This document shows positions 1-34,000 of a stretch of DNA of 48,759 nucleotides, in pieces. This DNA is from a virus: IMG/VR virus record IMGVR_UViG_3300018481_000010, positions 1 to 48,759 of that record. One strand, given 5' to 3'. The notes beneath the pieces were generated by a model. That model had not been told where the DNA came from. It saw nothing but the letters and a program-made list of their open reading frames with translations, and made no database searches. Within the stretch, counting starts at the first letter, position 1. Every line of letters starts with the position of its first letter. Made by a program: the position numbers and the translations under genes.

Positions 1-123
1 GATCCCGGTCAGTTCACGTTCGAAGTCGCCGAACGTGATCTTCCCGTCACGGATATCGGCCGTGAGGTGGGTGACCTTGCTCGTGGGGCTGATCAGGCGC
101 TTCGCGATCCGGTCGAAGTCAAC
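1..123. repeat. Left copy of the 123-bp terminal direct repeat
   Basis: Bases 1-123 are identical to 48637-48759. Both copies lie inside the coding sequence of the giant protein and in the same frame, because the unit length of 48,636 is divisible by three. This is what an assembler leaves when it walks round a circular or circularly permuted molecule. A genuine short terminal redundancy of the packaged DNA cannot be excluded from sequence alone. Confidence 0.97.
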
Positions 124-10390: not shown

Positions 10391-10486
10391 ATCCTACGAC
10401 AACGCCCGGCACGGTCGGCGTAAACGGTGTAAAGTGGCGTAACGCGGCGTTGCACCAAGCACGCCTCAGCAAGGAGAGCACGGCAG
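10391..10486. promoter_or_regulatory. Divergent promoter/operator region between the two arms
   Basis: This 96-bp gap separates leftward terS from the first rightward gene, so it should hold promoters for both arms. It contains phased repeats: GTAAA at 10420, GTAAA at 10429, GTAAC at 10439 and GTTGC at 10449, about one helical turn apart, in the context GCGTAAACG / GTGTAAAGTG / GCGTAACGCG. Such spacing suggests cooperative protein binding on one DNA face. The rightward end carries CTCAGCAAGGAG (10465-10476) as ribosome-binding site. I cannot place -35/-10 boxes with confidence. Confidence 0.6.
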
Positions 10487-10936
10487 ATGCCGCTCATCAC
10501 CGTCAGCGCGGGAACGCCCGCCATCCCCGCCGGGACCTACCCGGCCACCCTCGTCGGCATCCGCCCCAAGCGGATGGCGACCCAGTACTCCGTGCCGCCC
10601 GGCGCGGAGCAGGACTTCCTTGAGTGGACGTGGCTGGTCGAGGGTCCCGACCGCGACGTGGAGATCACGTCGCTCACCAGCCTCGCGACCTCGCCCAAGT
10701 CCCGCATCTTCGAATACCTCCTCGCGCTGGTCGGCAAGGACGCCGCCAGCATCGGGGCCGGGTTCGATGAGGGCGACCTCGTCGGCAAGGCGGTCATGGT
10801 GCAGACCATCGAGACTCCCGAAGGGTTCGCCAAGATCGACAAGATCGTGGCCGCCCCCAAGGGCCGCACCGCCCCGGCTGGCGAGAAGGTCAAGGCCCCG
10901 ACCCCGGCCGTCAGCGAGGACGACCTCCCCTTCTAG
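10487..10936 (+). CDS. Putative single-stranded-DNA-binding protein (SSB-like acidic C-terminal tip)
   Basis: 149 residues and the first gene of the rightward arm. The N-terminal 110 residues are beta-rich (TYPATLVGIRPKRMA, FLEWTWLVEG), compatible with an OB fold. A flexible Ala/Pro/Lys linker leads to the terminus SEDDLPF. An acidic tip ending in Pro-Phe is the protein-docking tail of bacterial and phage SSBs. Placed upstream of the primase-helicase, it probably coats single-stranded DNA during replication. The start ATG 10487 is set by CTCAGCAAGGAG ten bases before it. The stop is TAG, followed by a strong terminator. The core sequence is not a family I can name. Confidence 0.68.
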   Translation: MPLITVSAGTPAIPAGTYPATLVGIRPKRMATQYSVPPGAEQDFLEWTWLVEGPDRDVEITSLTSLATSPKSRIFEYLLALVGKDAASIGAGFDEGDLVGKAVMVQTIETPEGFAKIDKIVAAPKGRTAPAGEKVKAPTPAVSEDDLPF

Positions 10937-10952
10937 TTACATCCTGTAAACT

Positions 10953-10988
10953 GACCCCACCAGCCCCGCTGGTGGGGTCTTTCTGTTT
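10953..10988 (+). terminator. Rho-independent terminator after the SSB-like gene
   Basis: Perfect 11-bp stem GACCCCACCAG (10953-10963) / CTGGTGGGGTC (10969-10979) with a 5-base loop, followed by TTTCTGTTT. It lies 17 bases beyond the TAG stop and just before the ribosome-binding site of the next gene. This separates the SSB-like transcript from downstream genes, at least in part. Confidence 0.88.
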
Positions 10989-10999
10989 CAGGAGCACGC

Positions 11000-11206
11000 A
11001 TGACCGCACACGTCCAGACCGTCGTCACCTACAGCCTCACGGAGGCGGCCAAGCGGGTGGGTGTCAGCCGCCAGACGCTGTGGAAGGACATCCGGGCCGG
11101 GAAACTGCCCGTCCACAAGTCCGGCAACGCCGTCCACATCTACGCCGCCGACCTGCTGGACTACGTCCTGTCCTACCGGGGCGGTTCGGGGATCAGCGGG
11201 GCGTAA
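11000..11206 (+). CDS. Excisionase-like helix-turn-helix protein
   Basis: 68 residues with a MerR/excisionase-type winged HTH: SLTEAAKRVGVSRQTLWKD as the helix-turn-helix, then RAGKLPVHKSGNAVHIYAADL as the wing. Such proteins bind DNA as recombination directionality factors or small regulators. The start ATG 11000 follows CAGGAGC. It is isolated between two terminator hairpins, suggesting its own promoter or read-through control. No integrase is present, so an early-gene regulator is more likely than an excisionase. The second small HTH protein (27913-28116) has the same style. Confidence 0.82.
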   Translation: MTAHVQTVVTYSLTEAAKRVGVSRQTLWKDIRAGKLPVHKSGNAVHIYAADLLDYVLSYRGGSGISGA

Positions 11207-11266
11207 CATCGGGGGTCCGGCCCTGCTGACGCCGGATCGGGGACCTTCACGGCCTCTTAAACGCCA

Positions 11267-11290
11267 GAAACCCCCGTTTCCGGGGGTTTC
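11267..11290 (+). terminator. Terminator-like hairpin before the primase gene
   Basis: Stem GAAACCCCC (11267-11275) / GGGGGTTTC (11282-11290) with a 6-base loop, in the 115-bp gap 11207-11321. It lacks a clear T-tract, so it may be an attenuator or RNA-stability element. The variant start-associated sequence CTCAGCAAAGAG (11300-11311) follows it. Confidence 0.6.
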
Positions 11291-11321
11291 AGGACAACTC
11301 TCAGCAAAGAGTGGAGGGATC

Positions 11322-13436
11322 ATGCCCGAACAGGGCGAATATCGCAACAGCGACCGCCTCGTTGAGGCGTTGCGTCACGTCGAGATGGGCTTCGGAGCCT
11401 TCTCCGTGTGGTCAACCACCCCCGAAGGGGTCTGTCGCTGCCCGAAGGGACGCGAATGCACCTCGGCGGGCAAGCATCCCATCCCCCGCGACGGCTTCAA
11501 CGCCATGAGCCGTGACCCGAAGGTCGTCACGACGATGCTCTCGGCCGGTTCGAACCCCAACTACGGCCTCGTGTGGCCCGATGGCGATGACATTGTCGTC
11601 GTCCTCGACGTTGACGGGGCCGACTGGCAGGCCCGGATTGCCGAACTGAAGGCGAAGTACGGCCCCCTTCCGGCCACCAAGACCACGAAGACCCCGTCCG
11701 GGGGTTTGCACCTGTTCTACCGCTGGCCGAAGGGCATTCCGATCCCCGACACGAACCACCTCCACGGGTTTGTCATCCGTTTCCCGATGAAGGGCTACGT
11801 GGTGGGACCGCTCAGCGCAATCAACGGCAAGGTGTACACGACGGCGGGACCGGACGAGATTGCCGTCCTGCCGCCGACATGGGCCGCGACGACGCCGACG
11901 CCCGCCACCCGGCCCATGATCGTGGTCGAGGAGGGCAAGCCCGCGTACGAGATGCCCATCCACGTCCCGACCGGGACCCGCCACGACGAGATCGCCCGTC
12001 TGGTGGCCTCGCTGTGGAACAAGCGGGTCGAGCGGGCGGTCATCGAGGCCGGGGTCCGCGCGCTCGCGGAGCGGTTCGATGACCCGATGGAGCCGCAGCG
12101 CCTGAAGGACGAGATCGACCACGCGTGGGACACGGCCCAGAAGAAGTGGGTCGATCCCGCCGCTGGCGAGAACCGGACGGAAACAGGATCGGAAGTGCCC
12201 GCATCGGGTGGCCGAACCACCGTCGAGGTCGGGCTGCTCGATGCCGACGCCCCGGTCGTGCCCATCGCGATGCACGCCGACGCGATGACGGGCAGCGTCC
12301 AGTTGGCGACCCTGCTCGCCCACTTCGAACCCCGGACCGACGCGGGCAAGGAAGGACTGCTCGTCACGTCACTCGTGTACCTCGGTGCCCTGATGGGCCA
12401 CACGCCGTCGTGCTTCTACGGGTCCCGCGAGCAGCACACCTCGTTCTTCGCGATGCTGGTCGGCTCGACGGGCCGCTCGCGCAAGGGCACGACCGTCGAT
12501 CTCGTCCGCAGCGCCCTCGCCCAATGCACCGAAGCCACCCGTGGCCTCAAGCAGAGTCCCAACTCGGGAGAGGGCCTGATCGCTCTCGCCGAGAAGGCCA
12601 AGGGCGAGCCGATCCTCGTGGAGGAGGAGGAGTTCGACCGCTTCATCAAGGCCAAGGGCCGCGACGGCTCGACGCTGTCATCGATCCTGCGTCAGGCGTT
12701 CGATGACGTGCCGCTCTCGTCGGCCACGGTCAGCCGGGTCCTGCGCGCCCCGGTCCACCACATCGCGATGCTGGGCAACGTGACCCGCGAGGAGATCGTC
12801 GGGGGCATGGCGCAGGTGGACCTCAAGAACGGGTTCGCCAACCGCATCCTGTGGACGGGAGTGTTCCCCCGCGACACGCAGGTCAGCGTCCACGACAACG
12901 TGCTCTCGACCCACCTGCGCGACGAGTTGCGTGACGTGATCGCGTGGTCGCGCGGGCTGACCAAGCCGCTCATCGGTGGGGTGACCCACCAGATCGATGA
13001 CCGCGCCCGCGATGCCCTGCTCGCGGCCTCGGCCCGCTACAACGATGGGGTCGGGATGGCCCCCTTCCTGTGCCGCCGCCTCGACACCATCGCGGCACGC
13101 ATCGCGCTGGTCTACGCCTGCCTCGACTTCTCCCGCGTCATCACCATCGACCACGTCCTGTCGGCCCTCGCCGTGACGGACTACGCCAAGGCGTCCGCGT
13201 CGTGGGTGTTCCCCGAGACAACGGGTGACGCCCATGCCGACCTGCTCCTGCGCCACCTGCGCGTGGCGGGGTTCCTCGGGGCGCGCGAGATCGAGGCGCT
13301 GATCGGGAAGCGTGCCGTGGACCGCCAGCACGCCGCCGATGCGCTGATGCTCATGGGCTATGCCCGGATCGCGGAGCGACCCCGCTCTGACGGCAAGCCG
13401 GGACGACCGTCCCGTGGACTGGAGATCATCCCGTGA
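11322..13436 (+). CDS. Primase-polymerase / DUF3987-like helicase fusion
   Basis: 704 residues. The N-terminal primase-polymerase domain (about 1-200) shows the cysteine/histidine cluster CRCPKGREC...GKHP (residues 38-53), the catalytic pair in VVVLDVDG (D96, D98) and GGLHLFYRWP (H130), typical of bifunctional Prim-Pol enzymes. A linker follows, then a DUF3987-like helicase/ATPase domain with a P-loop variant GSTGRSRKGTT (381-391) and an acidic Walker B ILVEEEEF (431-438). It should prime synthesis and unwind DNA at the phage fork. The frame is open further upstream to 11061, but ATG 11322 has a GGAGG site and removes overlap with the preceding gene. No separate DNA polymerase is encoded, so host polymerase is probably recruited. 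Confidence 0.86.
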   Translation: MPEQGEYRNSDRLVEALRHVEMGFGAFSVWSTTPEGVCRCPKGRECTSAGKHPIPRDGFNAMSRDPKVVTTMLSAGSNPNYGLVWPDGDDIVVVLDVDGADWQARIAELKAKYGPLPATKTTKTPSGGLHLFYRWPKGIPIPDTNHLHGFVIRFPMKGYVVGPLSAINGKVYTTAGPDEIAVLPPTWAATTPTPATRPMIVVEEGKPAYEMPIHVPTGTRHDEIARLVASLWNKRVERAVIEAGVRALAERFDDPMEPQRLKDEIDHAWDTAQKKWVDPAAGENRTETGSEVPASGGRTTVEVGLLDADAPVVPIAMHADAMTGSVQLATLLAHFEPRTDAGKEGLLVTSLVYLGALMGHTPSCFYGSREQHTSFFAMLVGSTGRSRKGTTVDLVRSALAQCTEATRGLKQSPNSGEGLIALAEKAKGEPILVEEEEFDRFIKAKGRDGSTLSSILRQAFDDVPLSSATVSRVLRAPVHHIAMLGNVTREEIVGGMAQVDLKNGFANRILWTGVFPRDTQVSVHDNVLSTHLRDELRDVIAWSRGLTKPLIGGVTHQIDDRARDALLAASARYNDGVGMAPFLCRRLDTIAARIALVYACLDFSRVITIDHVLSALAVTDYAKASASWVFPETTGDAHADLLLRHLRVAGFLGAREIEALIGKRAVDRQHAADALMLMGYARIAERPRSDGKPGRPSRGLEIIP

Positions 13437-13735
13437 TGCAGCACCATCGCCTCTACTCCGTGATCACGAAGCATGACTGGCTGACCAACGAGCCTATCGA
13501 GGCGATGGTCGTCGCGACAGCCCGACTCGACTCGACGCTGGACGAGATCAGGTCACGGGTGCCCCGTTCGACGGGCTATCTGGCCGTCGTCAGCGGCCTC
13601 ACGTTGTCGGAGGCCGGTCGCATCGAGAGGGGACCTATGTCCCAAACGCCCAGAGGCCGTTTTGAGCACGAAAACCGACCTATGTCCCCTAAGTCCTCGC
13701 GCGCGAGTGCAGCGCACCCCCATCGGGGGTCGTAA
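13436..13735 (+). CDS. Small protein of unknown function after the primase
   Basis: 99 residues from ATG 13436, which overlaps the primase stop (TGATG); GTG 13433 is an alternative start giving 100 residues. The first half (HRLYSVITKHDWLTNEPIE, then ATARLDSTLDEIRSRVP) looks like a compact fold with a conserved-looking helix. The second half is basic and probably disordered. Two copies of the ACCTATGTCC repeat lie inside its coding sequence and each encodes P-M-S, so the 3' part of this gene doubles as a DNA element. Function unknown; translational coupling suggests replication or its control. Confidence 0.6.
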   Translation: MQHHRLYSVITKHDWLTNEPIEAMVVATARLDSTLDEIRSRVPRSTGYLAVVSGLTLSEAGRIERGPMSQTPRGRFEHENRPMSPKSSRASAAHPHRGS

Positions 13736-13785
13736 CACTGTTTACACACGAGCGTGGGGAACAGGGACATAGGTAGGACATAGGT
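13633..13785. repeat. Four copies of a 10-bp repeat, two per orientation (iteron or operator candidate)
   Basis: ACCTATGTCC occurs at 13633-13642 and 13678-13687, and its reverse complement GGACATAGGT at 13765-13774 and 13776-13785. Degenerate ATAGGT copies continue to the start at 13806. Between the two halves lie a 12-bp palindrome CTCGCGCGCGAG (13696-13707) and a hairpin ACCCCC/GGGGGT (13716-13730). The symmetric layout suggests a bound regulator or initiator and possible looping. It may control the 13806 gene or serve in replication. Confidence 0.75.
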
Positions 13786-13805
13786 AGTAGATAGGTATAG
13801 GTTAG

Positions 13806-14216
13806 ATGGGTACTAGTAAGGACACAGACCCCTTTAGGGCTGATGCCGCCCTTGTCTATCGGGCGTTGCGGGACTCCGGGCCTGCCAGTGCGGCCGTCCT
13901 CGCAGAGCGGGCCTTCCCGACGGAGTTCGGGCCTGACGACCCCGTCTACAGGTCGCTGCTCAAGCGAGGACTTCGTCGTGTCTACGACTCGCTGGTCTGG
14001 ATGCGGCATCAGGGGGTCGTGATCACGGCCGTCCCGTCGCCCGATGACCACTCGGTGTTCCATCTGGGGCGGGTCGAGGGTGCGGTATCGCCTCTTCGCA
14101 GCGTGCCCGTGCCTCGTGTTGCACGTGAACGACCGAGCGAGCCTGTGACAGTCGAGGTGTCACGCGATCAGGGCACGCTGAGTGATGCGATGGACATCTG
14201 GCACGGGGGTTCTTAG
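13806..14216 (+). CDS. Putative winged-helix DNA-binding protein
   Basis: 136 residues. The N-terminal 85 residues resemble a winged helix: ADAALVYRALRDSGPASAAVLAERAF, a second helix pair (SLLKRGLRRVYDSLVWMRHQG) and a beta wing (VVITAVPS, HSVFHLGRV). The C-terminal 50 residues are Pro/Arg/Ser-rich and probably flexible. It starts at ATG 13806, directly after the inverted GGACATAGGT copies, so it may regulate itself through them; that is inference. It ends with TAG just before the long non-coding region, which also suggests an initiator or regulator role. Confidence 0.62.
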   Translation: MGTSKDTDPFRADAALVYRALRDSGPASAAVLAERAFPTEFGPDDPVYRSLLKRGLRRVYDSLVWMRHQGVVITAVPSPDDHSVFHLGRVEGAVSPLRSVPVPRVARERPSEPVTVEVSRDQGTLSDAMDIWHGGS

Positions 14217-14456
14217 GGGATTTCGGTTCCGAACTGAAAACTCAGGGTCGGGTCCATCAGGTCACATTGAGCGTGGCGAAAAGTCCATCCGGTCACCAAC
14301 CTCAGTGACTTTACTCTTCCTCATACTGTTTGTGACCTGATCAGAGGAGGCTGCATCCCCGCGCACGGGGGAAACTCCGACGACGACGGGGGGGAGGGGG
14401 TACCGACCCGAAACGCAAGCGCCCCCCGGCCCGGCGATATGCTTGGCAAGGGCAAG

Positions 14457-14507
14457 AGATGTATGTGGGAGATACATCTATCTACACAATGAATGTACTC
14501 ATGTGTA
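14457..14507. promoter_or_regulatory. AT-rich double dyad
   Basis: Two adjacent inverted repeats sit in an AT-rich island within GC-rich DNA. AGATGTAT (14457-14464) pairs with ATACATCT (14472-14479), a perfect 8-bp dyad. TACACAATGA (14483-14492) pairs with TCATGTGTA (14499-14507) with one bulged base. Such structures are common at replication origins and operators. Which role applies cannot be decided here. Confidence 0.65.
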
Positions 14508-15216
14508 TTGATGAAAGCGCACATGTTCAGCACGACTGCCCTCCATGCGGGCACGGCGCAGCCCCCCTCGTGTGCGCCGCTAGGCTGACATGCAGGCCGC
14601 CGGTCCCCCCGATCAGGGCACCGATACGCCCGAGGCGGTGGACCCACGGTCCCCTCACCCCCACGAGGGCCATCCGGTCACTGTAACGTGGTTGCAATGT
14701 TCCTTTCAGAACACCTTGCACTCCCACGCTCAACCTCGTTTGCATCACCTCACCGCCATCGGTACACTCGCGGAGGCTCGTGAGAACGACGGGCCGGGGC
14801 CACTGCCAACCCTCCAGCACGGCAGAGCAAGCGAGGACCGAACCGCACACACGACCCGATCCAGACACCGGATCGGGAACCGATCCCCGGCGGCGGGGAC
14901 AGGAACGGGAACGACGATCACGATTGCGTAGGGACGAGCGGCACCAACCGCCGCTCAGACCTCACGGGCGGGTCGCCACTGAACGGTCAGGGAGCCGACG
15001 GCCAGTACCAGCAGCGCACGGCGGGTGCGATCTGGGAACACGGGGCAGGCGTAGGACGGGCAGGGGCACACCACGGCGCACGAGGACGACGACCGCATGA
15101 CGGGCCACAAGCCCCGACATCACGCAGGACCGAACAGGAACCGCGCCAGCCACCCGAACGGGGGCGGTGCGACGGCCGACACGACGGGACCCTGCGTGCG
15201 CCCGATCCCATGAGAT

Positions 15217-15282
15217 CACCGACCAGCCCGTGACCTGATCACGGCCTGATCGGTGCGCTCAGCATCGAACCTCAGCAAGGAG
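15217..15282 (+). promoter_or_regulatory. Hairpin plus start-associated sequence before the amber-interrupted gene
   Basis: Nested hairpin: outer arms CACCGACCAG (15217-15226) / CTGATCGGTG (15246-15255) with one mismatch, and inner arms CCGTGA (15228-15233) / TCACGG (15239-15244). It contains the GTGACCTGAT decamer (15230-15239) and GGTGCG, and is followed by CTCAGCAAGGAG (15271-15282). This is the first full example of the hairpin-GGTGCG-CTCAGC module found before several early genes. Confidence 0.72.
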
Positions 15283-15289
15283 ACTCACC

Positions 15290-15520
15290 GTGACCACCCC
15301 GAAGATCAAGGTCCCCGCGTACACCGGCCTCATCGACCGCCTCTGCGACGAGATGGACGACCTGCGCTAGGAGTACATGGAACTCAAGTTCGAACTCGAC
15401 TACACGCTGGGCACCGTCGAGCGTGCCATCGTCCGGGCCGCGATCCGCGACAACCTCGCCGCCAAGGCTGACCTTGAGGCCCGCATGGAGGCCCTTGGCA
15501 ACGCCGTCGGCGCGTACTGA
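15290..15520 (+). pseudogene. Small early gene interrupted by an in-frame amber codon
   Basis: GTG 15290 lies eight bases after CTCAGCAAGGAG. The frame reads 26 codons, meets TAG at 15368-15370, then continues open to TGA at 15518-15520 with well-formed coding sequence on both sides (DEMDDLR, amber, EYMELKFELDYTLG). With glutamine at the stop (a single C-to-T change from CAG) the product would be a 76-residue, largely helical protein. An in-frame ATG at 15377 has no good ribosome-binding site. TAG ends at least nine other genes here, so general recoding is unlikely. It may be a recent nonsense mutation, a population variant, an assembly error or a suppressed gene. Function unknown. Confidence 0.72.
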
Positions 15521-15564
15521 TCCAGCAACCCTCAGCACCAGCCTCAGCAAGGAGCACCCGACCC

Positions 15565-15849
15565 ATGATCAAGTACACCGCCATCCGCGACGAGCGTGGC
15601 ACGACCTACGTTGCCCCGCTGCCGCACCCGGTCCTGACCGGGTACTACGAGACTGCCCCGGCCACCCACGTGATGGTCTGGTACAACCGCGACACCCGTG
15701 ACTGGGTCGTGTCCTACTCCAGCACCGCGTTCGGGCAGCAGGTCGGCTCGTCGGAGTACGTCGGGTCGCGCTCGTGGGCCGATGACGAGGCGCAAGACCT
15801 CGTGAACGCCGCCGCCGCGTGCAAGCCGAACACGCACCTGCCCTACTGA
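15565..15849 (+). CDS. Small protein of unknown function (94 aa)
   Basis: Starts at ATG 15565, ten bases after CTCAGCAAGGAG (15543-15554). The sequence is rich in Tyr, Trp and Ser with alternating beta-type stretches (TYVAPLPHPVLTGYYETA, HVMVWYNRDTRDWVVSYSS) and ends in a short helix. There is no cysteine pair or membrane segment. It looks like a compact soluble beta protein of the anti-host or accessory class common in phage early arms. I do not recognise the family. Confidence 0.7.
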   Translation: MIKYTAIRDERGTTYVAPLPHPVLTGYYETAPATHVMVWYNRDTRDWVVSYSSTAFGQQVGSSEYVGSRSWADDEAQDLVNAAAACKPNTHLPY

Positions 15850-15862
15850 TCCGACCACCCCT

Positions 15863-15936
15863 CAGCCCGTGACCTGATCACGGGCTGCATGGTGCGCCGC
15901 ATCCTCAGCCTCAGCACCAGCATCCTCAGCAAGGAG
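15863..15936 (+). promoter_or_regulatory. Hairpin plus start-associated sequence
   Basis: Perfect 10-bp stem CAGCCCGTGA (15863-15872) / TCACGGGCTG (15878-15887) with loop CCTGA, again carrying GTGACCTGAT (15869-15878). GGTGCG follows at 15891, then repeated CTCAGC units and the start-associated sequence CTCAGCAAGGAG (15925-15936). With no T-tract, it is a poor classical terminator and may be an RNA-processing or protein-binding element. Confidence 0.75.
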
Positions 15937-15944
15937 CACGCTCA

Positions 15945-16316
15945 ATGAGCACCCCCACCGTCGCCGCGTCCCTCGATTGGGACTACGCGCTCAGCATGCC
16001 CAGCACCCGTGTCGCCGCACGGGTCGAAACCAAGGTCTGGACCGACGGCGTGGTCCTCGCCACCGTGTTCGGGGACGACGAGCGCGATGCGTTCAGCGCC
16101 AGCACGTGGCGCGGCGTGATCCGCCGCAACCCCAAGTGGGCCGTCGGCCCGGCGTGGTCGCTCCTCGATGACGACGGGCGGCTGATCGTCAACGGCCGGA
16201 CCCGCAGGGACCTCCTCGCGACGGCCGGGGCGTTCGCGATCAACGGGTGGGCCGCCCCGATCCGGGTGCGGATCGCCGCGTCGGAGCGGGCCGCACGCGC
16301 CGCTCAGCCCCGATGA
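15945..16316 (+). CDS. Protein of unknown function (123 aa)
   Basis: ATG 15945 is eight bases after CTCAGCAAGGAG. The protein mixes beta segments (RVAARVETKVWTDGVVLATVFG) and helices, with Trp residues at regular intervals (STWRGVIRRNPKWAVGPAWSLL) and a basic, Ala-rich C-terminal helix. Its stop overlaps the next start (ATGA), so the next two genes are probably co-translated with it. No motif that I recognise. Confidence 0.7.
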   Translation: MSTPTVAASLDWDYALSMPSTRVAARVETKVWTDGVVLATVFGDDERDAFSASTWRGVIRRNPKWAVGPAWSLLDDDGRLIVNGRTRRDLLATAGAFAINGWAAPIRVRIAASERAARAAQPR

Positions 16317-16489
16317 CCGGCCAGTGCCCGCACCGGTTCCTCTCGATCCGGTGCAACCGGCCGCACGGCCATCAGGACGCGCATGCCATCGGGACACCCC
16401 GCGAGGTGAACCGGTTCTTCCCCCGCTTCCCCGGAGTCAACGACACGGCCTGCCCGGCAGGCTGCACGAGAGAGGGACACGCCCGATGA
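16313..16489 (+). CDS. Small Cys/His-rich protein (58 aa)
   Basis: ATG 16313 overlaps the stop of the preceding gene, and the stop overlaps the next ATG. The sequence CPHRFLSIRCNRPHGHQDAH and a later CPAGC give four cysteines and several histidines, consistent with one small zinc site. Phage early arms often contain such proteins, written CxxxxxRCxRxxGHxxxH, of unknown role. Tight overlaps on both sides support it as a real gene. Confidence 0.62.
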   Translation: MTGQCPHRFLSIRCNRPHGHQDAHAIGTPREVNRFFPRFPGVNDTACPAGCTREGHAR

Positions 16490-16662
16490 ACACGTTCTGC
16501 CGCTACTGCGGGAACAGCCGAAGCGACCACGCTCAGTCGTGGTCGCGCTGCTACGGGTTCGAAGCCCAGCCCAAGCCGACCTGCCGCGTGTGCGGCGGGC
16601 GGTTCGATCCGGCCAAGTCCGGTCGCGAGGATTGCTGCTACCGGCACCGCCTCGACTCCTGA
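16486..16662 (+). CDS. Small zinc-ribbon-like protein (58 aa)
   Basis: ATG 16486 overlaps the stop of the gene before it; GAGAGGGA upstream is a plausible ribosome-binding site. It holds CRYCG, later CRVCGGRF, then CCYRH, which could form two zinc knuckles. It is the last gene of a three-gene overlapping set and is followed by a hairpin region. Nucleic-acid or protein binding is plausible, but unproven. Confidence 0.65.
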   Translation: MNTFCRYCGNSRSDHAQSWSRCYGFEAQPKPTCRVCGGRFDPAKSGREDCCYRHRLDS

Positions 16663-16675
16663 TCGACCCACCGTG

Positions 16676-16749
16676 CGTGCCCTGATCGACTGATCAGGTC
16701 ACGCTCGCGGTGCGCCGTTCGCACCTCAAGAAGCCACCTCAGCAAGGAG
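16676..16749 (+). promoter_or_regulatory. Double hairpin plus start-associated sequence before the MoxR gene
   Basis: Hairpin CGTGCCCTGATC (16676-16687) / GATCAGGTCACG (16692-16703) has one mismatch in 12 and a 4-base loop. A second hairpin GGTGCG (16709-16714) / CGCACC (16720-16725) follows, and then CTCAGCAAGGAG (16738-16749). The first right arm contains ATCAGGTCAC (16693-16702). This is the most elaborate example of the module and it precedes the MoxR/VWA operon. Confidence 0.75.
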
Positions 16750-16761
16750 TACTCTCACCTC

Positions 16762-18252
16762 ATGCCGAACGTGATCGGGCTGTTGCCCGCCACCGACCTC
16801 ATCGCCGCCCACCCCAACGGGGCGACGAAGATCACCTACGGGCCGCACGCGTACGTCGTGATCGACGCGGCCGGGTCGGCGACCCTGTTCGCCCAGAGCG
16901 ACGACCGCAAGGTCGCCGCGTACGACGGCACGAAGCCGTCAGCCGCGCTCAGCAGGATCGACTCCGACACGGTCACGGCCGTGAACGCGTTCCTGAAGCC
17001 GTTCGGCAAGGTCCGCGTCTACTGGCGCGCCAAGCCGGGCGAGGTCCCCTACCGTTGGCACCCGCTCAACGGCACGGCCGTGTCGGCAACCCCCCGCCCG
17101 CCCCGCAAGGCGAGCACGGCAGCCCCCAAGCCGCGCCGCAAGGCGACCCCCAAGCCCGTGGCGGCAGCCCCCTCAGCCCCGGTGGCTGAGGCTCCCGCCC
17201 CGGTCGCCGCTCCCGTCGCGACCGTCGTGACGGCCCATCCGGCCACCGCGCCGGTCATCGAGACTGCCACGACGTGGGCGGATCGCTTCAGCAAGCGGCC
17301 CACGGCCAAGACGGTCACCAAGACCTACAGCATCGTCGCGGACGTGCTGATCCCGACCGAAGACCTCGACACGCTCGACTCCGCGTACCGCCAGCGGCTC
17401 GCGGGGCAGGACGCCCACGTCCTGATCACCGGCCCTCGTGGCACGGCGAAGACGCGGGTGGCGCAGTCGTGGGGCTACGTGAACGACCTTGAGGTCGTGA
17501 TCGTGGCGGGCCAGTCGATCCAGATCGCCGACGACTGGTTCGGTGGCGTGAAGCCGACCGGTGGCGGCGGGTTCGACTGGGTCTGGTCGGACGCGGCGCT
17601 CCTGATCATGACCGGGCGGCCGTGCCTGATCGTGATCGATGAACTCAACCGCCCGGACAGTGCCAAGGCGCTGAACGGGATCATGGACCTGCTCGACTTC
17701 CGGGCAACGGCCAAGCCGCTCAACGCACCGCACGCGATCCGGCTGGTGCCCGGCCAGATGGTCATCGCGACCCTGAACGAGGGCATCGAGTACACCGCGA
17801 CCGTCGAGATCGACGCGGCCGTCCGCGACCGGTTCAGCCGGGGTGGCGGGATCACGATGCGCTACACGAGCGAGGCCATCGAGTCACGCATCGTGCGGGG
17901 TCAGGTCCCCGGCATCGACGCGACTGAGCACGGCCCGGACGTGTCGAAGAAGTTGGCCCGGATCGGCGCGCACCAGCGGGCCACGGTCAACGGCAAGGAC
18001 GGCGACATCGCGTACCCGTCCGGCACCACGCTCTCGACCCGTGCGCTGGTCGGGATCGCCGACAAGATCGTGACCGGGGGCCTCAAGCCCACGGCCGCCA
18101 TCTGGTCGGTCGCCAAGGCTACGTTCCAGCCCGAAGACATGCAGTCGATCAAGAACCTGATCGAGTCGCAGTTCGGACCGGACGCGGCCCCCATCGACGA
18201 CCTCGCCGACGACGACGACATCGAGTTGATGCTCGACGCGCACGGCGTCTAG
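16762..18252 (+). CDS. MoxR/CbbQ-type AAA+ ATPase
   Basis: 496 residues. Residues 1-104 form a small beta-rich domain. A low-complexity Ala/Pro/Lys linker (about 105-170) connects it to an AAA+ core with Walker A GPRGTAKT (224-231), Walker B CLIVIDEL (288-295), sensor asparagine in VIATLNEG (N339) and an arginine-finger region DRFSRG (356-361). This is the MoxR/NorQ/CobS group, which remodels a partner through a VWA protein with a metal-dependent adhesion site. The C-terminus is acidic. The VWA partner is two genes downstream, each spaced by a CTCAGCAAGGAG start site, so the three should be expressed together. The substrate is unknown. Confidence 0.88.
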   Translation: MPNVIGLLPATDLIAAHPNGATKITYGPHAYVVIDAAGSATLFAQSDDRKVAAYDGTKPSAALSRIDSDTVTAVNAFLKPFGKVRVYWRAKPGEVPYRWHPLNGTAVSATPRPPRKASTAAPKPRRKATPKPVAAAPSAPVAEAPAPVAAPVATVVTAHPATAPVIETATTWADRFSKRPTAKTVTKTYSIVADVLIPTEDLDTLDSAYRQRLAGQDAHVLITGPRGTAKTRVAQSWGYVNDLEVVIVAGQSIQIADDWFGGVKPTGGGGFDWVWSDAALLIMTGRPCLIVIDELNRPDSAKALNGIMDLLDFRATAKPLNAPHAIRLVPGQMVIATLNEGIEYTATVEIDAAVRDRFSRGGGITMRYTSEAIESRIVRGQVPGIDATEHGPDVSKKLARIGAHQRATVNGKDGDIAYPSGTTLSTRALVGIADKIVTGGLKPTAAIWSVAKATFQPEDMQSIKNLIESQFGPDAAPIDDLADDDDIELMLDAHGV

Positions 18253-18276
18253 GTCACCACCTCAGCAAGGAGTCCC

Positions 18277-19644
18277 ATGGACACGTTCAGCATCATCCGC
18301 AAGGCGGTCGCCGATCAGGCGGCCGACCTGAGCAAGGTCGGGGTGGACCCCCGGACCGCCCACGTCGGGCGGATCACGGCCGCCGTCCAGTCGGTGGTCG
18401 ATGTCCTCACGCCGCCGCAGGGCGGCCGGTACATCGTCGGCTTCGCCGACATCAGCACGGCGGCGACCTCGCTTGGCGAGCACCGCATCATCGTGTCGAG
18501 CAAGCCGCTCAAGGACTCGACCCTCAACATGGTCGAGCAGGCCGTGGTCATCGCCACGTTCGCCGCCCACGAGATCGGCCACACGATCATCACGGCACCG
18601 CGCAAGGAGATGATCGAGGCACACAACCCCAAGAGCGGGTTCCATGCGGTCACCAACCTCGCCGACGACATCATCCTTGAGCCTTGGATGGTGGACCGGT
18701 TCCCGATCCTCGCCGACGCGTTTGAGTTCACGGGCCTCTGGGTCCTGCGCTCGACGGCCCCGTCACTGCCCAAGGTCGTGAAGATGACCAAGGCGATGAC
18801 CACGGCCGAACGGTTCAACGCGATCCTCAGCGCCACCCGCTACGACGACACGACCGACATCGTGTGGGACGGCGCGGCGGCTGAGGCTGAGCGCGACTGG
18901 GGTCGTGACTGGAAGCGCCGCCTGATCGAGGCACGCGTTCGCGATCACGCCACGTTCCTCGCCCTCTGCGACGAGATGTGGGAGCGGATCAGGACCGAAG
19001 CCGACGAGGACGAGCCGGTCGAGCAGCCCCCGATCATCGACTGCCCCATCGGGCCGTCGAACGAGAAGCCCCCGGAGGGTGGCGAGGAACCGCCCGTCGA
19101 TGGTCCCAAGCCGCCCGTCAACGACGGTGGCGAGGAGCCGCCGACCGATGGCCCCGACGAGGGTGGCGACGAGCCGCCGGTCGATGGACCCACCCAGCCG
19201 ACCGACAAGCCGGGCGAGGGCGGCGAGCAGCCGTCCGACAAGCCCGCCGATCCGAACGACCAGCCCCGTGACTGGGACGACGACAAGCCGGGCGACGAGC
19301 CGGGCGAGGAGCCGACCGACGAGCCGGGCAAGGAGCAGGGCGAGGACGGCAAGGAGCAGGGCGAGCAGCCCAGCACCGACACCGACGGCCCCAGCGAGGA
19401 CAAGCCCGACCCCGACCGCGACGGCCCGGAGAACCCGGACGGCGAGGGCGGTGGCGGGAACAGCGAAGCGACCAGCCGGGACGAGGACTCGCTCGACCCC
19501 GACGAGATCGACAAGAGCACCCACGATCAGGCTGAGCGCCACGAGTGGGACGCGGACGACACCGAAGCGGCCGTCCGCACCTACGCCTCGACCACGGTGA
19601 CCTCGTTCGGTCGCCACGGCTCGATCAGCACCCGCTGGGACTGA
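18277..19644 (+). CDS. HExxH metallopeptidase-like protein with long acidic tail
   Basis: 455 residues, starting at ATG 18277 five bases after CTCAGCAAGGAG. The N-terminal 260 residues contain FAAHEIGHTI (HEIGH at 98-102) and then TNLADDIILEPWM (about 126-138), the arrangement seen in the metallopeptidase-like N-domain of phage and bacterial CobT-like/DUF2201-type proteins. Residues about 265-420 are a disordered Pro/Asp/Glu/Gly repeat tract (EEPPVDGP, EEPPTDGP, DEPPVDGP), then a short folded C-terminus. CobT-like proteins carry N-domain, acidic linker and VWA domain on one chain; here the chain stops after the acidic tract and the VWA is separate. Whether it cleaves protein or is a structural metal site is unknown. 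Confidence 0.8.
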   Translation: MDTFSIIRKAVADQAADLSKVGVDPRTAHVGRITAAVQSVVDVLTPPQGGRYIVGFADISTAATSLGEHRIIVSSKPLKDSTLNMVEQAVVIATFAAHEIGHTIITAPRKEMIEAHNPKSGFHAVTNLADDIILEPWMVDRFPILADAFEFTGLWVLRSTAPSLPKVVKMTKAMTTAERFNAILSATRYDDTTDIVWDGAAAEAERDWGRDWKRRLIEARVRDHATFLALCDEMWERIRTEADEDEPVEQPPIIDCPIGPSNEKPPEGGEEPPVDGPKPPVNDGGEEPPTDGPDEGGDEPPVDGPTQPTDKPGEGGEQPSDKPADPNDQPRDWDDDKPGDEPGEEPTDEPGKEQGEDGKEQGEQPSTDTDGPSEDKPDPDRDGPENPDGEGGGGNSEATSRDEDSLDPDEIDKSTHDQAERHEWDADDTEAAVRTYASTTVTSFGRHGSISTRWD

Positions 19645-19682
19645 TCGGGCCACCACCCCCCTCAGCAAGGAGATGTGACCCG

Positions 19683-20609
19683 ATGAACAACAGGCCGACC
19701 TACAAGCCCGAAGACCTCGACGCCCAGCACGCGTGGTTCAACCCGGCCAAGCGATCCGACCGGGGTCGCGAGGTTCCCATCACGTTCGACGCTCCGACGT
19801 TCGTGTCAGCCGGGGCCGTCGCGACCATCCGGCGGGCGTTCCAACTCGCCCGCACCGGCCGCGACGGCTGGCAGTCCCACAAGTACGAGGGGCGGTTCGA
19901 CAACCGCGCCGCCGCTCGTGCCACCCGTCAGGAACTGGACGTGTTCAAGCACCGGACGGGTGAGAGCGCGCCGCGAGTCAAGGTGGCGATCCTGATCGAC
20001 GCCAGCGGCTCGATGGCAAAGGACGACGCGAAGATCGAGAACCCGCTCGACCGGACGATGAAGATGATCACGTCACGCCGCCTCGCGGCTGCCGCGTTCG
20101 GTGCCACCATCGCCAAGGCGCTGGGCGCGGTGCCGACCGTCGATCTGGACGTGTACCAGCACTCAGCCAACCGTGGCTCGATGGTGATCAAGTGGCGCTG
20201 GTCGCGAGGGACCCCGATCCGGGTGTTCAACCGTGCCAGTGATCGCGGGATCGGCCGGTCGGGCAACGCCGACGGGCATGCGCTCGTTGCCATCGCCGAC
20301 CGGATGCTCAGGTCCATGAAGCGCAATGAGCGTGGCGTGATCATGGTCGTGAGCGACGGGCTGCCGTCGGTCCCCGGCGACGGGGGCCTGTACGGGAGCG
20401 CCGCCGGTCAGGCCCTGATCGACGCGGTCGCCCACTGCCGCAAGCATGGGATCACGGTCGTCGGTGTCGCCATCGACGGCTCCGACCAGACGGTCTACTA
20501 CGGTGCCGACACGATCCCGTTCACGGGTGACTGGATGGCACTGGGCAAGCACCTCGCACGGCTGGTCGGCAAGGCGCTCGCCACGCCGGTCGTCACCAAG
20601 CGCCGCTGA
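19683..20609 (+). CDS. VWA-domain protein (MIDAS), partner of the MoxR ATPase
   Basis: 308 residues from ATG 19683. The frame is open further upstream, but CTCAGCAAGGAG (19661-19672) sits ten bases before this start. The VWA domain (about 98-300) begins VKVAILIDASGSMAK with the metal-binding DASGS (106-110) and continues to VIMVVSDGLPS and GITVVGVAIDG, as in CobT and NorD/CbbO proteins. The N-terminal 95 residues are basic and unrecognised. VWA subunits couple MoxR ATPases to a target through Mg2+-dependent binding. With the two preceding genes it forms a complete remodelling set. The downstream hairpin at 20622 probably ends or processes the transcript. Confidence 0.87.
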   Translation: MNNRPTYKPEDLDAQHAWFNPAKRSDRGREVPITFDAPTFVSAGAVATIRRAFQLARTGRDGWQSHKYEGRFDNRAAARATRQELDVFKHRTGESAPRVKVAILIDASGSMAKDDAKIENPLDRTMKMITSRRLAAAAFGATIAKALGAVPTVDLDVYQHSANRGSMVIKWRWSRGTPIRVFNRASDRGIGRSGNADGHALVAIADRMLRSMKRNERGVIMVVSDGLPSVPGDGGLYGSAAGQALIDAVAHCRKHGITVVGVAIDGSDQTVYYGADTIPFTGDWMALGKHLARLVGKALATPVVTKRR

Positions 20610-20621
20610 ACCCCATCGCCT

Positions 20622-20682
20622 CTGGCCGGGAGATTGCTCCCGGCCAGCACGATGCGACTCAGCATCACCACTCAGCAAGGAG
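20622..20682 (+). promoter_or_regulatory. Strong hairpin plus start-associated sequence after the VWA gene
   Basis: Perfect 11-bp stem CTGGCCGGGAG (20622-20632) / CTCCCGGCCAG (20637-20647) with loop ATTG, starting 12 bases after the VWA stop. GATGCGACTCAGC follows, and then CTCAGCAAGGAG (20671-20682). There is no T-tract. The arm sequence differs completely from the other modules while position and flanks are conserved, so the structure rather than the sequence appears to be what is kept. Confidence 0.78.
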
Positions 20683-20688
20683 ATCGAC

Positions 20689-20919
20689 ATGGTCTACGTC
20701 GTCAACATCAGCAACGTCCTCGATGAGGACACGGGCACGGTCGGCGTCATTCACGTCACCGTCAACAGCAAGGACGAGGGCGAAGCACTCATCGCGGAGA
20801 TCGTCCGCGAGGAAGAGTGCGATCCGGCAAACTTTGCTCTCGTGGTCGCAGCCGACGACTGGGAGTGCGTCGGTCACGGCGACGGTCCCCTCTGCACCGC
20901 AGCCCCCCGGCTCAACTGA
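20689..20919 (+). CDS. Small acidic protein of unknown function (76 aa)
   Basis: ATG 20689 is six bases after CTCAGCAAGGAG. The sequence is beta-alpha in style (YVVNISNVLDEDTGTVGVIH, then NSKDEGEALIAEIVREEECD) and strongly acidic. Its stop overlaps the next ATG (TGATG). The acidic, compact character resembles small phage inhibitors that mimic DNA or bind host enzymes, but there is no direct evidence for that. Confidence 0.68.
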   Translation: MVYVVNISNVLDEDTGTVGVIHVTVNSKDEGEALIAEIVREEECDPANFALVVAADDWECVGHGDGPLCTAAPRLN

Positions 20920-21119
20920 TGAGCGGACGGGACGCGCTCGCTCGCAAGTCCAAGGCGTCGAGCATGGTCAAGGCGTACTTCGAACTCCTCAAGGAGGACG
21001 AGTGCAAGTGCGGGTACTTCGAAAGCGCCCGCCGCCATCACGACCCGGCCGACCGGGACTTCCACCCCATCGACGTAGCCCCGAAGGCACCCCGCCCGAC
21101 CGGCACCGTCGTCTACTAG
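20919..21119 (+). CDS. Small basic protein with Cys/His motif (66 aa)
   Basis: ATG 20919 overlaps the stop of the preceding gene. A basic helix (KSKASSMVKAYFELLKED) leads into ECKCGYFESARRHH, a possible partial metal site, then a Pro-rich end with a TAG stop. Family unknown; the overlap and codon pattern support a real gene. Confidence 0.6.
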   Translation: MSGRDALARKSKASSMVKAYFELLKEDECKCGYFESARRHHDPADRDFHPIDVAPKAPRPTGTVVY

Positions 21120-21144
21120 CCCCCACCTCAGCAAGGAGTCCATC

Positions 21145-21432
21145 GTGACACTCATCGCCCTGTTCATCGTCGCCCTGCTCAACGCCGGGATCATCCCGGC
21201 CATCGGGTTCGAAGACGAGCCAATCGTCGCCGTCATGGGCGAGGTTGCCGTCGGTGCCCTGATCGAGCAGCAGCCCGCCTGCGATGGCGGCACCACCCTC
21301 TGGGACTTCAACCGCGACAACTCCGACGGCCTCGCGGTCATCGGGCTGGCCGGTGAGGCGTGCGAGTTCGCCGCCGAGTTCTACCGTTCGCCAGAGACTG
21401 GCCTCTGGCAGTTCGCCGTCAACGGTTCCTGA
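21145..21432 (+). CDS. Small secreted or membrane-anchored protein candidate (95 aa)
   Basis: GTG 21145 lies six bases after CTCAGCAAGGAG (21127-21138). The N-terminus TLIALFIVALLNAGIIPAIG is hydrophobic and could be a signal anchor. The remainder is acidic and contains two cysteines (QPACDGG, GEACEF) that could form a disulphide outside the membrane. No positive residue precedes the hydrophobic stretch, so export is uncertain. Family unknown. Confidence 0.65.
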   Translation: MTLIALFIVALLNAGIIPAIGFEDEPIVAVMGEVAVGALIEQQPACDGGTTLWDFNRDNSDGLAVIGLAGEACEFAAEFYRSPETGLWQFAVNGS

Positions 21433-21445
21433 ACCCCACCGCCTT

Positions 21446-21508
21446 CGGCCGTGACCTGATGGTCGCGGCCGACACGGTGCGACTCAGCACCTCAGCCTCA
21501 GCAAGGAG
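21446..21508 (+). promoter_or_regulatory. Hairpin plus start-associated sequence
   Basis: Stem CGGCCGTGACC (21446-21456) / GGTCGCGGCCG (21461-21471) with loop TGAT and one G-U-type position; the left arm and loop include GTGACCTGAT (21451-21460). GGTGCGACTCAGC and then CTCAGCAAGGAG (21497-21508) follow. The layout is nearly the same as at 20622. Confidence 0.76.
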
Positions 21509-31019: not shown

Positions 31020-34000
31020 CTACGACAGGACTGGCAGGTAGTGTTCGGTCACGATGATGACGCCCGGTCCCCCGGCACCACCAGCCTTGGCAGCCTGACT
31101 GGCCGTGGAGGATGAGCCACCGCCGCCGCCACCGTAGTTCCCGCCCGCGTCCCCGACGGCGATGTTGCCCCACTTGCCGCCACCGCCCAGCACGCTCGCG
31201 CCGCCCGTGCCAGACGAATAGCGGATCGCGTTGTTGACGCCACCACCGCCACCGCCCTGCCCATCGGCGCTGACCTCGGCCACGCCGTTGGTCCCACCAC
31301 CGCTCCCCGGCGTGGACAGGGACGATCCCGACGAGAGTTTCGTCCCGACGGCACCGCCGTTCCCACCGAAGGCTTGCAGTACCGTGGCCCCGTTGGAGAA
31401 CGCCGACGTTGACCCACCGTTGCCACCAGCCCCGGCCACGCCCGTCCCGCCAGCCCCGACGATGACGCTACAGGAGGAGGCGAGGGACGCCGCCGTGAAC
31501 AGGTGGCGACAGTAGCCGCCACCACCACCACCGGCACCCGACCCAGTCTCAGCCGCGACCGTAGCGGGAACCCCGCCGCCCGCTCCACCTCCACCCACCA
31601 CCTCGACCACGATGTGCGACAGACCGGCGGGCTTCGACCACGTCCCGCCCGCCGTGCCGTACACGCGTACGACCGGCACGGGCTGGCTGATCGTGGGCAG
31701 GCCACCACCGGCATGGCTGTGCAGCGTGGTCGGCGTGCCGTCGGTCAGGTCCGTCCAGTTGGCGTCGGCCTCGCGCACGTAGCCCGTGTGCGGGTCAGCC
31801 GCCGCTTCGTGAGCGGACAGGTCGGGGATCGCAGGCTGACCCGTCAGGGATGAGTACGCGATCTGCCCTGCTTGCAGGCCCGTGGTCGCATGGGTGTGGT
31901 CGGCGCTCTCCAGCCTGTACCCGGTGTGCGGATCAGCCGCCGCCACGTGGCCTGCGAGATCGGGGATCGCAGGCGTACCGGTGATCGCCGAGTACGCGAT
32001 GGTCCCACCCTGCAAGCCCGTGGTGGCATGGCTGTGATCCGCCGACTCCAGTCGGTAGCCCGTGTGCGGATCAGCAGCAGCAGCGTGGGCCGTGACCGGA
32101 TCGGCAGGCATCGCGTGCTTGTGGTCGTTCTTCGACCACGTCGTGGCCGCGCCACCGGCAGCAGCATCACCGAACGCCTGCGTCGAGGGCGTCGAGCCAG
32201 CAGCCGGGATGGCGGGCGGGCCTGTCAGCGAGGAGTACGCGATCTGCCCACCCTGCAACCCGGTGGTCGCATGGGTGTGGTCGGCAGACTCCAGCCGGTA
32301 CCCGGCGTGCGGATCGGCCAGCCCCGCATGCGCCACGACGGCTGCGGTCGGGGCATCACCCAGCGCGACGGTCGCGGAGGTCGTGCCGGTCGGCAGTTGG
32401 GCGAGCGGGACCTTGGTGGTGGCATCGAGGCTCGCGTAGCCCGACGCCGCACCCTTCTCGGACTCCTTCTGGTAGCCGGTGTGCGGATCGGCAGCAGCAG
32501 CGTGGGCGGCGGTCGTCCCGGCTGGCTCCGCACCGATGGCCGCGTTGACGTTGACCGCGTCGATGTAGTTGAGGGCACCGCCCAGATAGGTGGCGAAGTC
32601 CCCGTCGGTCGCGCCCGGCGGAACACCGGCAGCCGGGCCGGGGATGCCCTGTGGCCCGATGGGTCCCTGCGGTCCGGGGTCGCCCTGCGGACCGGCCGGA
32701 CCGGTCGATCCGGTGGCCCCGGTCGGACCCGTCGGACCCGGCACGGTGCTGTCGGCACCAGCCGGACCCGTGTTGCCGGTGTCGCCCTTGATCCCTTGGA
32801 TGCCCTGCGGTCCCTGCGACCCCGTGGCACCCGTCGTTCCGGTGTCTCCCTTGACCCCCTGCGGCCCCTGTGGCCCCGTAGGGCCGGGGACGGTGCTGTC
32901 CGCACCGGCAGGGCCGGTCGGTCCTGTCGCGCCCGTAGCGCCCGTCGTACCGGCGGGTCCCGTGTCACCCGTGTCGCCTTTGACGCCCTGCGGACCCTGA
33001 GAACCGGTGGCCCCGGTCGGCCCCGTGTTGCCGGTGTCACCCTTGATGCCTTGCGGACCCTGCGATCCGGTGGCACCAGCCGGTCCCTGCGGGCCGGGGA
33101 CCGTCGAGTCGGCCCCGGCAGGACCCGTCGGGCCAGCCGGTCCCGTGGCACCGGTCGCACCGGCAGGACCCGGCACCGTCGAGGCGGCTCCGGTCGGACC
33201 GGCCGGTCCTTGCGGACCTTCGGGACCGGGCGGCCCCTGCGGACCGGGGGCACCGCCGCCGAACGGTGCGCCGTTGACCCAGATGACGCCAAACTCGGGC
33301 GAGGTCAGTTCGGTGTCGCCGCCAAGGACGAGGCCCTGATCCCCGCCCTCGACCACGTCACGAGCGCCACCGTCCGTGCCCCGATAACGGAGGACGCCGC
33401 CCTTGGAGCCGTCGATCTGGACCCCGCCCGCATCCACGATGGACGCACCAAGGGCACCCGGCGACCAAGCCGTCGCGACCGACGACTCCTCCAACTTGAC
33501 GGCATCGAACCACGCCTTCGATCCGGCCACGCCCCCGGCCTTGAGCGCCACCCAGACGACGATGTCCGCTTCCCCGACCTGATAGATCGGGGAGCGGTAG
33601 CGGTTCACGTCGTACTGGACGTTGTAGAAGAGGGTGTCCTCCTCCAACTCCTTGGTGACGATGTCCTCGCCAGCCGAGTTCTTGACCGGCAGCCCGTCCT
33701 CGCCCACCAACTGGAGTTGGGCACCCGAGTCGCCCTGTGACTTCATCAGCCCGGTGAGGATGTAGGTGCGGCCACCGCGCAGCCGGACGGGCATCGAGTA
33801 CAGGAGGAACGGACCCGATCCGGTCACGTTGCAGCGCGCCGACCGCGATCCGTACACGTACTCGCTGGTGTCGGCCGCCCACGGTGGTGCCATGGGGGTC
33901 TGGGCCACGAGCGGGGTCGCGTCCGGCAGCGAGGCGAGGTTCATCCCCCACTTGTCGAGTTTCGGGGACGCCCCGGTACCCGACTGGATCGTGACCTTGT

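Follow-up and report, generated by a model that had tools for sequence, protein, structure and literature searches.

A CobS/CobT-like MoxR–VWA system carried as three separate genes in a complete phage genome, with a probable protease on a chain of its own

Three neighbouring plus-strand genes of an uncultured phage, encoding an AAA+ ATPase (16762–18252), a HEIGH-containing protein (18277–19644) and a VWA protein (19683–20609), are each almost certainly homologous to the viral CobS/CobT-like family, in which a MoxR-type ATPase is paired with a chain made of an HExxH domain, an acidic linker and a VWA domain. Beyond this family placement, we consider it somewhat probable (about 0.55) that the three proteins make up an early-expressed, three-chain MoxR–VWA remodelling machine in which a probable protease forms its own chain. 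The motifs named in the original prediction (GPRGTAKT, HEIGH, TNLADDIILE and DASGS) were all found as described, in a trio of open reading frames; its reading of the trio as a CobS/CobT-like system whose CobT-like chain is split at the acidic linker agrees with profile comparison, with Foldseek and with a syntenic relative carrying the same split. The features, in coordinates of the window (the whole 48,759-nucleotide stretch analysed), are as follows.

16738–16749, plus strand: CTCAGCAAGGAG ribosome-binding box of the ATPase gene (sequence)
16762–18252, plus strand: AAA+ ATPase of the CbbQ/NorQ/midasin (MoxR-type) class, 496 aa (PF07728, phrog_249, PDB profiles)
16762–17100, plus strand: ATPase N-terminal domain of ~110 residues, of no known family, then an Ala/Pro linker
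17431–17454, plus strand: Walker A GPRGTAKT, residues 224–231 (sequence)
17632–17652, plus strand: Walker B VIDELNR (sequence and alignment)
18261–18272, plus strand: CTCAGCAAGGAG ribosome-binding box of the HExxH gene (sequence)
18277–19644, plus strand: HExxH zincin-like protein with acidic tail, 455 aa, the N-terminal half of a CobT-like chain (hhalign, AF2/BFVD)
18568–18582, plus strand: HEIGH, predicted zinc-binding and catalytic motif, residues 98–102 (HExxH alignment)
18652–18681, plus strand: TNLADDIILE, residues 126–135, probable third metal ligand (alignment)
19000–19566, plus strand: Asp/Pro/Glu/Gly-rich tail, residues 242–430 (composition)
19661–19672, plus strand: CTCAGCAAGGAG ribosome-binding box of the VWA gene, evidence that translation starts separately (sequence)
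19683–20609, plus strand: VWA protein with MIDAS, 308 aa, the C-terminal half of a CobT-like chain (hhalign, AF2)
19998–20012, plus strand: MIDAS DASGS, residues 106–110 (sequence)

In HMM–HMM comparison with CobS/CobT-type families, all three chains matched viral CobS/CobT-like profiles: the ATPase against 13 phage ATPases (hhalign Prob 99.9, E 1.5e-34), the N-domain of the HEIGH protein against 11 phage CobT-like N-domains (Prob 96.9, E 1.7e-10) and the VWA protein against phage VWA halves (Prob 98.3, E 1.4e-14). The controls included reversal, shuffling and masking of motifs, and the shuffles were clean; the N-domain scored 71.6 against a maximum of 17.2 over 100 column shuffles, and its Prob was still 88.4 after masking HExxH.

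The ATPase matched AAA_5 (PF07728, 1.4e-8) and the CobS-like phrog_249 (1e-13), and its profile found midasin (1.7e-19), CbbQ (7e-18) and NorQ (3.6e-17) in the PDB. These matches assign it to the CbbQ/NorQ/GvpN-type MoxR ATPases, defined by AAA_5 with CbbQ_C and a midasin-like core, with its CbbQ_C match (PF08406) at 12.9 bits, under the 20.6 cut-off that both relatives exceed. The P-loop was present in all ATPases compared in the alignment (21/21), and sensor 1 (TLN) and an arginine finger (AAVRDRF) were also found; judged by sequence, the ATPase motifs are intact. All matches to AAA_5, AAA_16 and CbbQ_C lie downstream of the N-terminal domain, which is conserved in virus contigs L002 and L021. 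A tblastn search among phage records found no relative of the ATPase.

An AF2 model of the HEIGH protein matched phage CobT/VWFA proteins in BFVD by Foldseek, and among its best 19 viral fold matches all the named or known ones are phage CobT-like/VWFA proteins. The original prediction had named the lack of any CobT-like or metallopeptidase match as telling against it, and the N-domain does have CobT-like matches. Among solved structures no good match was found, the best being a weak one to minigluzincin/selecase (E about 0.4). The N-domain contains HExxH followed by N-x-x-[ED]-D-x-x-[IL]-[ED], the pattern of the family, and TNLADDIILE is the equivalent of N-x-L-E-D-x-x-I-E in other viral homologues, with NIAEDARLE in L021 as a bridging sequence; the third zinc ligand is uncertain, as the window has D in place of the E of LED. 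In the model, HEIGH lies inside a helix spanning residues 85–116 and the acidic motif inside a helix spanning 120–141. From these motifs, the HEIGH protein is probably a zinc peptidase. Its acidic tail, the equivalent of the acidic linker in fused CobT-like chains, had been put at 150 residues; it is present but longer, at about 189 residues (242–430; D 19%, P 19%, E 16%, G 14%).

The HEIGH protein had no match in Pfam, PHROGs, NCBIfam or PADLOC and no relative by tblastn against phage and plasmid records, where the VWA protein had one weak match; neither the HEIGH protein nor the ATPase had a relative in two scans covering 84,980 prokaryote genomes. DUF2201, a metallopeptidase–VWA family earlier suggested for comparison, gave no Pfam match in the window (PF13203, DUF2201_N). 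We also considered a defence-system or VMAP ternary-system reading (PMC7159879) and found no support for it: PADLOC gave no significant match, with none for the HEIGH or VWA protein and, for the ATPase, solely a 29-residue P-loop stretch matching JetC (E 0.039), and bpMoxR in L021 (2.5e-4) was below cut-off.

The AF2 model of the VWA protein found its best Foldseek matches in HCTV-2 and other phage CobT-like proteins. Its start is the SD-preceded ATG at 19683, and the mechanical ORF start at 19545 was not used; the MIDAS of the L021 counterpart reads DGSSS. The acidic linker followed by a MIDAS VWA domain, a feature of the family, is thus present here but across two chains.

In the usual form of the family, the N-domain and VWA domain share one chain; in the window and in L021 they are two genes with their own start sites. 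By Foldseek, the HEIGH and VWA halves match identical fused phage proteins, for example A0A6J5RLL3, L7THW0 and A0A3G3LYT8. The ATPase and HEIGH genes are adjacent in two other virus contigs, one of which has the full trio, and because of this recurrence the motifs are not due to chance. L021 carries the ATPase, HEIGH and VWA genes separately and in the same order; its phage is syntenic with the window (terminase 50% and capsid 56% identical), and the N-domains are 34% identical. The same split in a syntenic genome therefore shows that it is real and conserved, and a frameshift or assembly error was ruled out as its origin by this recurrence together with the separate SD boxes and starts. The observation that each gene has its own CTCAGCAAGGAG proved true but not specific to the trio: this sequence occurs exactly ten times in the window, always on the plus strand and just before starts (10465, 15271, 15543, 15925, 16738, 18261, 19661, 20671, 21127 and 21497), and is therefore a ribosome-binding element of the whole block rather than a mark of the trio.

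Surveying fused and split forms, we found that the split trio recurs in L021 and that fused forms occur widely among tailed viruses, but also that a split had already been published. The split is not new in kind, since a split cobT was described in 2021 for the halovirus HHTV-2 (Haloarcula hispanica tailed virus 2; PMC8651126). Genes 2, 3 and 10 of HHTV-2 likewise provide an HExxH protein with acidic tail (355 aa) and a VWA protein (428 aa) as separate genes, plus an AAA; gene 8 was considered as the split N-half and rejected, gene 2 being the correct one. Unlike in the window, where the ATPase gene comes first in a contiguous trio, the HHTV-2 ATPase gene lies about 3 kb off, and its product carries an N-terminal helix-turn-helix domain where the window ATPase has a different domain. 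On the AAA tree, the HHTV-2 split is a separate event, because HCTV-2 and Hardycor1, its closest relatives, have the fused form. Another split set was looked for in the first 50 kb of Streptomyces phage Jay2Jay, and none was found.

Compared with the CobS/CobT-like pairs (cobST) of tailed viruses (PMC8651126), in which an AAA+ gene lies near one for an HExxH N-domain/acidic linker/VWA chain, all three window proteins match by profile, but here the chain is encoded by two genes and the N-terminal domain of the ATPase differs. For viral CobST, a helper role was proposed in which the ATPase and VWA chain would assist host CobN and so increase the supply of cobalamin (PMC8651126). The VWA protein does match the cellular CobT VWA domain (Prob 95.3, E 2.4e-8), the ATPase matches CobS (Prob 96.1), and two other phage proteins exceed the Pfam CobT cut-off; we nevertheless regard such a role as quite improbable for the trio. 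The window N-domain profile gave a Prob of 0.1 against four cellular CobT proteins, Pfam CobT (PF06213) had no match in the window at E up to 10, and, among solved proteins, midasin, CbbQ and NorQ are closest to the ATPase, which falls outside the CobS clade on the tree. Cellular cobaltochelatase CobS/CobT thus resembles the trio in overall plan and VWA homology, but its CobT lacks HExxH and its ATPase sits on another branch. The genome is complete, as indicated by an exact 123-nt terminal repeat, and neither CobN nor the ribonucleotide reductase large chain was found in it, although the host may encode a CobN. Within the limits of these searches, the claim that the phage has no cobalamin genes stands.

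HExxH was kept in 14/14 viral N-domains aligned, including those of the window and L021, and lost in 4/4 genuine cellular CobT proteins, which favours a metallopeptidase over cobalt chelation and strengthens the original suggestion of a different target. Among the comparators, the chains of Gordonia phage GMA6 and Brevibacterium phage Cantare retain HExxH. By pattern, Thermus phage P23-45 and Pumpernickel have no HExxH, so not every phage chain associated with such an ATPase has the peptidase motif. We doubt a reading in which the HEIGH domain is a relic with a structural or metal-binding role and the trio, like CbbQO, remodels without proteolysis: CobT shows that the fold can lose HExxH yet remain in a complex, and CbbO has no described peptidase domain (PMC4660213), but H, E, H and the following acidic residues are strictly conserved over 14 very divergent viral proteins. 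A literature search of limited coverage found no reported activity for any viral family member.

The trio lies in a plus-strand replication block, with a Prim-Pol primase upstream and RusA and an exonuclease downstream, and this position suggests early expression in infection. Most comparator phages also have the pair beside replication or nucleotide genes. A virion-assembly machine, in which motor, adaptor and peptidase fold and trim structural proteins, was among the options first listed; assembly was proposed for the MoxR and metallopeptidase–VWA pair of group 2.2 jumbo phages (PMC7824862), and a MoxR–VWA role in tail growth of Acidianus two-tailed virus is cited in PMC7824862 and PMC7911831. 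By description only, the jumbo-phage pair has the same three activities but a fused adaptor chain. Gene position makes assembly unlikely here, as the genes for terminase, capsid and tail lie on the minus strand, away from the trio, and in 11/12 annotated phage loci the roughly 5 kb around the pair contains no named head or tail gene, the exception being S-B05, with tail fibres.

The CbbQ/CbbO and NorQ/NorD pairs share the ATPase class and a MIDAS VWA partner with the trio, but their adaptor is one chain with the VWA domain, and CbbQ/CbbO has no HExxH chain. NorQ/NorD is not known to have one either. Returning to the proteolytic three-chain machine, by analogy with CbbQO (PMC4660213) and MoxR–VWA systems (PMC7159879), the ATPase would form a hexameric ring, as in CbbQ/CbbO and midasin, on which the VWA protein would dock, its MIDAS metal gripping an acidic residue of one target; ATP hydrolysis would deform this target, and the HEIGH zinc peptidase, joining via its flexible acidic tail, would cut it. 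The split may free the peptidase to come and go, untied from the adaptor. The likely target is a complex of host or phage proteins that the machine encounters early in infection.

More broadly, and tentatively, most viral 'CobT' proteins might serve not as chelatase subunits but as the peptidases of a widespread proteolytic machine that is driven by ATP, targeted through VWA and used early in infection. In this phage lineage the machine would come as three detachable parts; if so, the protease would be an interchangeable module. Two papers disagree on how to read this viral gene pair. In PMC8651126, the annotation of the cyanophage gene as a peptidase is regarded as mistaken and a role in cobalamin synthesis is put forward, whereas PMC7824862 describes the N-domain as a metallopeptidase and suggests a role in virion assembly. 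The retention of HExxH in aligned viral N-domains and its loss in true CobT bear on this dispute, and the split form is convenient for testing, since deleting or mutating the peptidase would leave the adaptor intact. As a separate observation on annotation, the viral two-gene pair is often labelled as vitamin B12 enzymes, and most viral versions keep the protease site lost in the real B12 proteins.

The three open reading frames of the original prediction are present at their positions in the window with the motifs described for them, and lie among these features (L002 and L021 are two related virus contigs):

16762-18252, + strand: ATPase
16762-17100, + strand: N-terminal domain of the ATPase, about 110 residues, kept in L002 and L021
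18277-19644, + strand: HEIGH protein, whose HExxH-bearing N-terminal part is here called the N-domain
19683-20609, + strand: VWA protein
43594-48636 joined to 1-3465, - strand: 2,835-residue ORF spanning the contig ends, with a weak match to phrog_9880 (function unknown)

Alignment showed Walker A, Walker B, sensor 1 and the arginine finger of the ATPase to be intact; its N-terminal domain matches no known family, and the HHTV-2 counterpart differs in carrying a helix-turn-helix domain there. The HEIGH protein gave no matches in Pfam, PHROGs, NCBIfam or PADLOC. The VWA protein, with a complete DxSxS, starts at the ATG at 19683 behind its own ribosome-binding box (SD).

To place the family, we compared profiles of the window proteins and their relatives with phage CobS/CobT-like proteins using hhalign, the comparators (from cyanophages, haloviruses, Gordonia, Brevibacterium, Roseobacter and other phages) being retrieved and checked individually. 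All three chains matched, as predicted, with E-values from one single comparison apiece: ATPase to CobS-like (Prob 99.9, E 1.5e-34), N-domain to CobT-like (Prob 96.9, E 1.7e-10) and VWA to CobT-like VWA (Prob 98.3, E 1.4e-14). The N-domain comparison scored 71.6, whereas none of 100 column shuffles exceeded 17.2 and the reversed template reached 12.0; masking HExxH still left a score of 45.6. The N-domain as modelled by AlphaFold (pTM 0.71) had phage CobT/VWFA proteins, including HHTV-2 gene 2, as top viral fold matches, several of the 19 best being unnamed; the lower-confidence VWA model (pLDDT 58.5) matched the same fused phage proteins. In profile comparison with solved structures, the ATPase groups with CbbQ, NorQ and midasin.

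Only L002 and L021 were found as clear kin in IMG/VR. L002 has the ATPase (42% identity to the window) and the HEIGH gene (61%), the latter cut by the contig end. L021 carries the whole trio as three separate genes in the same order (33%, 34% and 32% for ATPase, HEIGH and VWA over aligned stretches), at the same place in a syntenic contig (terminase 50%, capsid 56%, exonuclease 47%). HEIGHT and N-x-A-[DE]-D-x-x-L-E are common to all three HEIGH proteins.

Most comparators carry the HExxH and VWA domains on one chain, joined by the acidic linker; the split form occurs in the window, L021 and HHTV-2, where it is already published (PMC8651126). In the ATPase tree, HHTV-2 falls outside the window clade, in a strongly supported group with HCTV-2 and Hardycor1, both of the fused form, so either splitting or fusion happened at least twice. 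The window clade therefore adds a second case, independent and conserved, of an architecture that is not new.

HExxH is kept in 14/14 aligned viral N-domains, a set excluding Thermus P23-45 and Microbacterium Pumpernickel, in which pattern search found none; where phages pair a chain of this kind with such an ATPase, retention of the motif is therefore general, not universal. Cellular CobT from four plasmid-borne cobST loci lacks HExxH and has a VEQARVE-type sequence at the position of viral LED..IE (a short query served only to locate annotated cobT genes, sequences then being taken from the records). Cellular CobT gave no direct match to the window N-domain (Prob 0.1) and Prob 96.1 against a wider phage N-domain set (hhalign). 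This comparison makes a chelatase role for the trio appear less likely and a peptidase role for the predicted HExxH N-domain more likely, in line with the original move away from cobalt chelation. Separately, 1,872 plasmid records matched a phage CobT query at E up to 1e-3; in one examined, a Cupriavidus plasmid (L035), a HECAH...NALEDTFIE protein adjoins a MoxR ATPase near TrfA and DnaE.

In CbbQO, mutagenesis supports a ring working with a MIDAS adaptor, the adaptor gripping an acidic residue of the target (PMC4660213). By analogy, the ATPase would be a ring motor, the VWA protein its MIDAS adaptor and the HEIGH protein a tethered putative peptidase.

An exact 123-nt direct repeat at the window ends (1-123 and 48637-48759) indicates a complete genome map of about 48.6 kb. 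Neither CobN nor a ribonucleotide reductase large chain was found in this genome, agreeing with the predicted lack of cobalamin genes. The - strand carries the packaging and virion genes (terminase, capsid, tail), among them a tail-fibre gene (31758-33068) with internal repeats, some of them collagen-like; on the + strand are a Prim-Pol primase, the trio, RusA and an exonuclease. Replication genes lie beside the system here and in most comparators, a position that speaks for a target met early in infection rather than for virion assembly, one of the roles first proposed.

The box CTCAGCAAGGAG noted before each trio gene is real, and occurs as 10 exact copies directly before + strand start codons (10465-21508), so it is not trio-specific. 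As it is also missing from the L002 and L021 contigs, it is uninformative on the trio as a unit beyond indicating separate translation starts. Its CTCAGC part reaches past a normal SD and resembles start-associated sequences of some actinophages. A 45-nt direct repeat (15214-15258 and 15853-15897, 82% identical) contains the near-palindrome CCCGTGACCTGATCACGG, and these repeats are possible regulator-binding sites.
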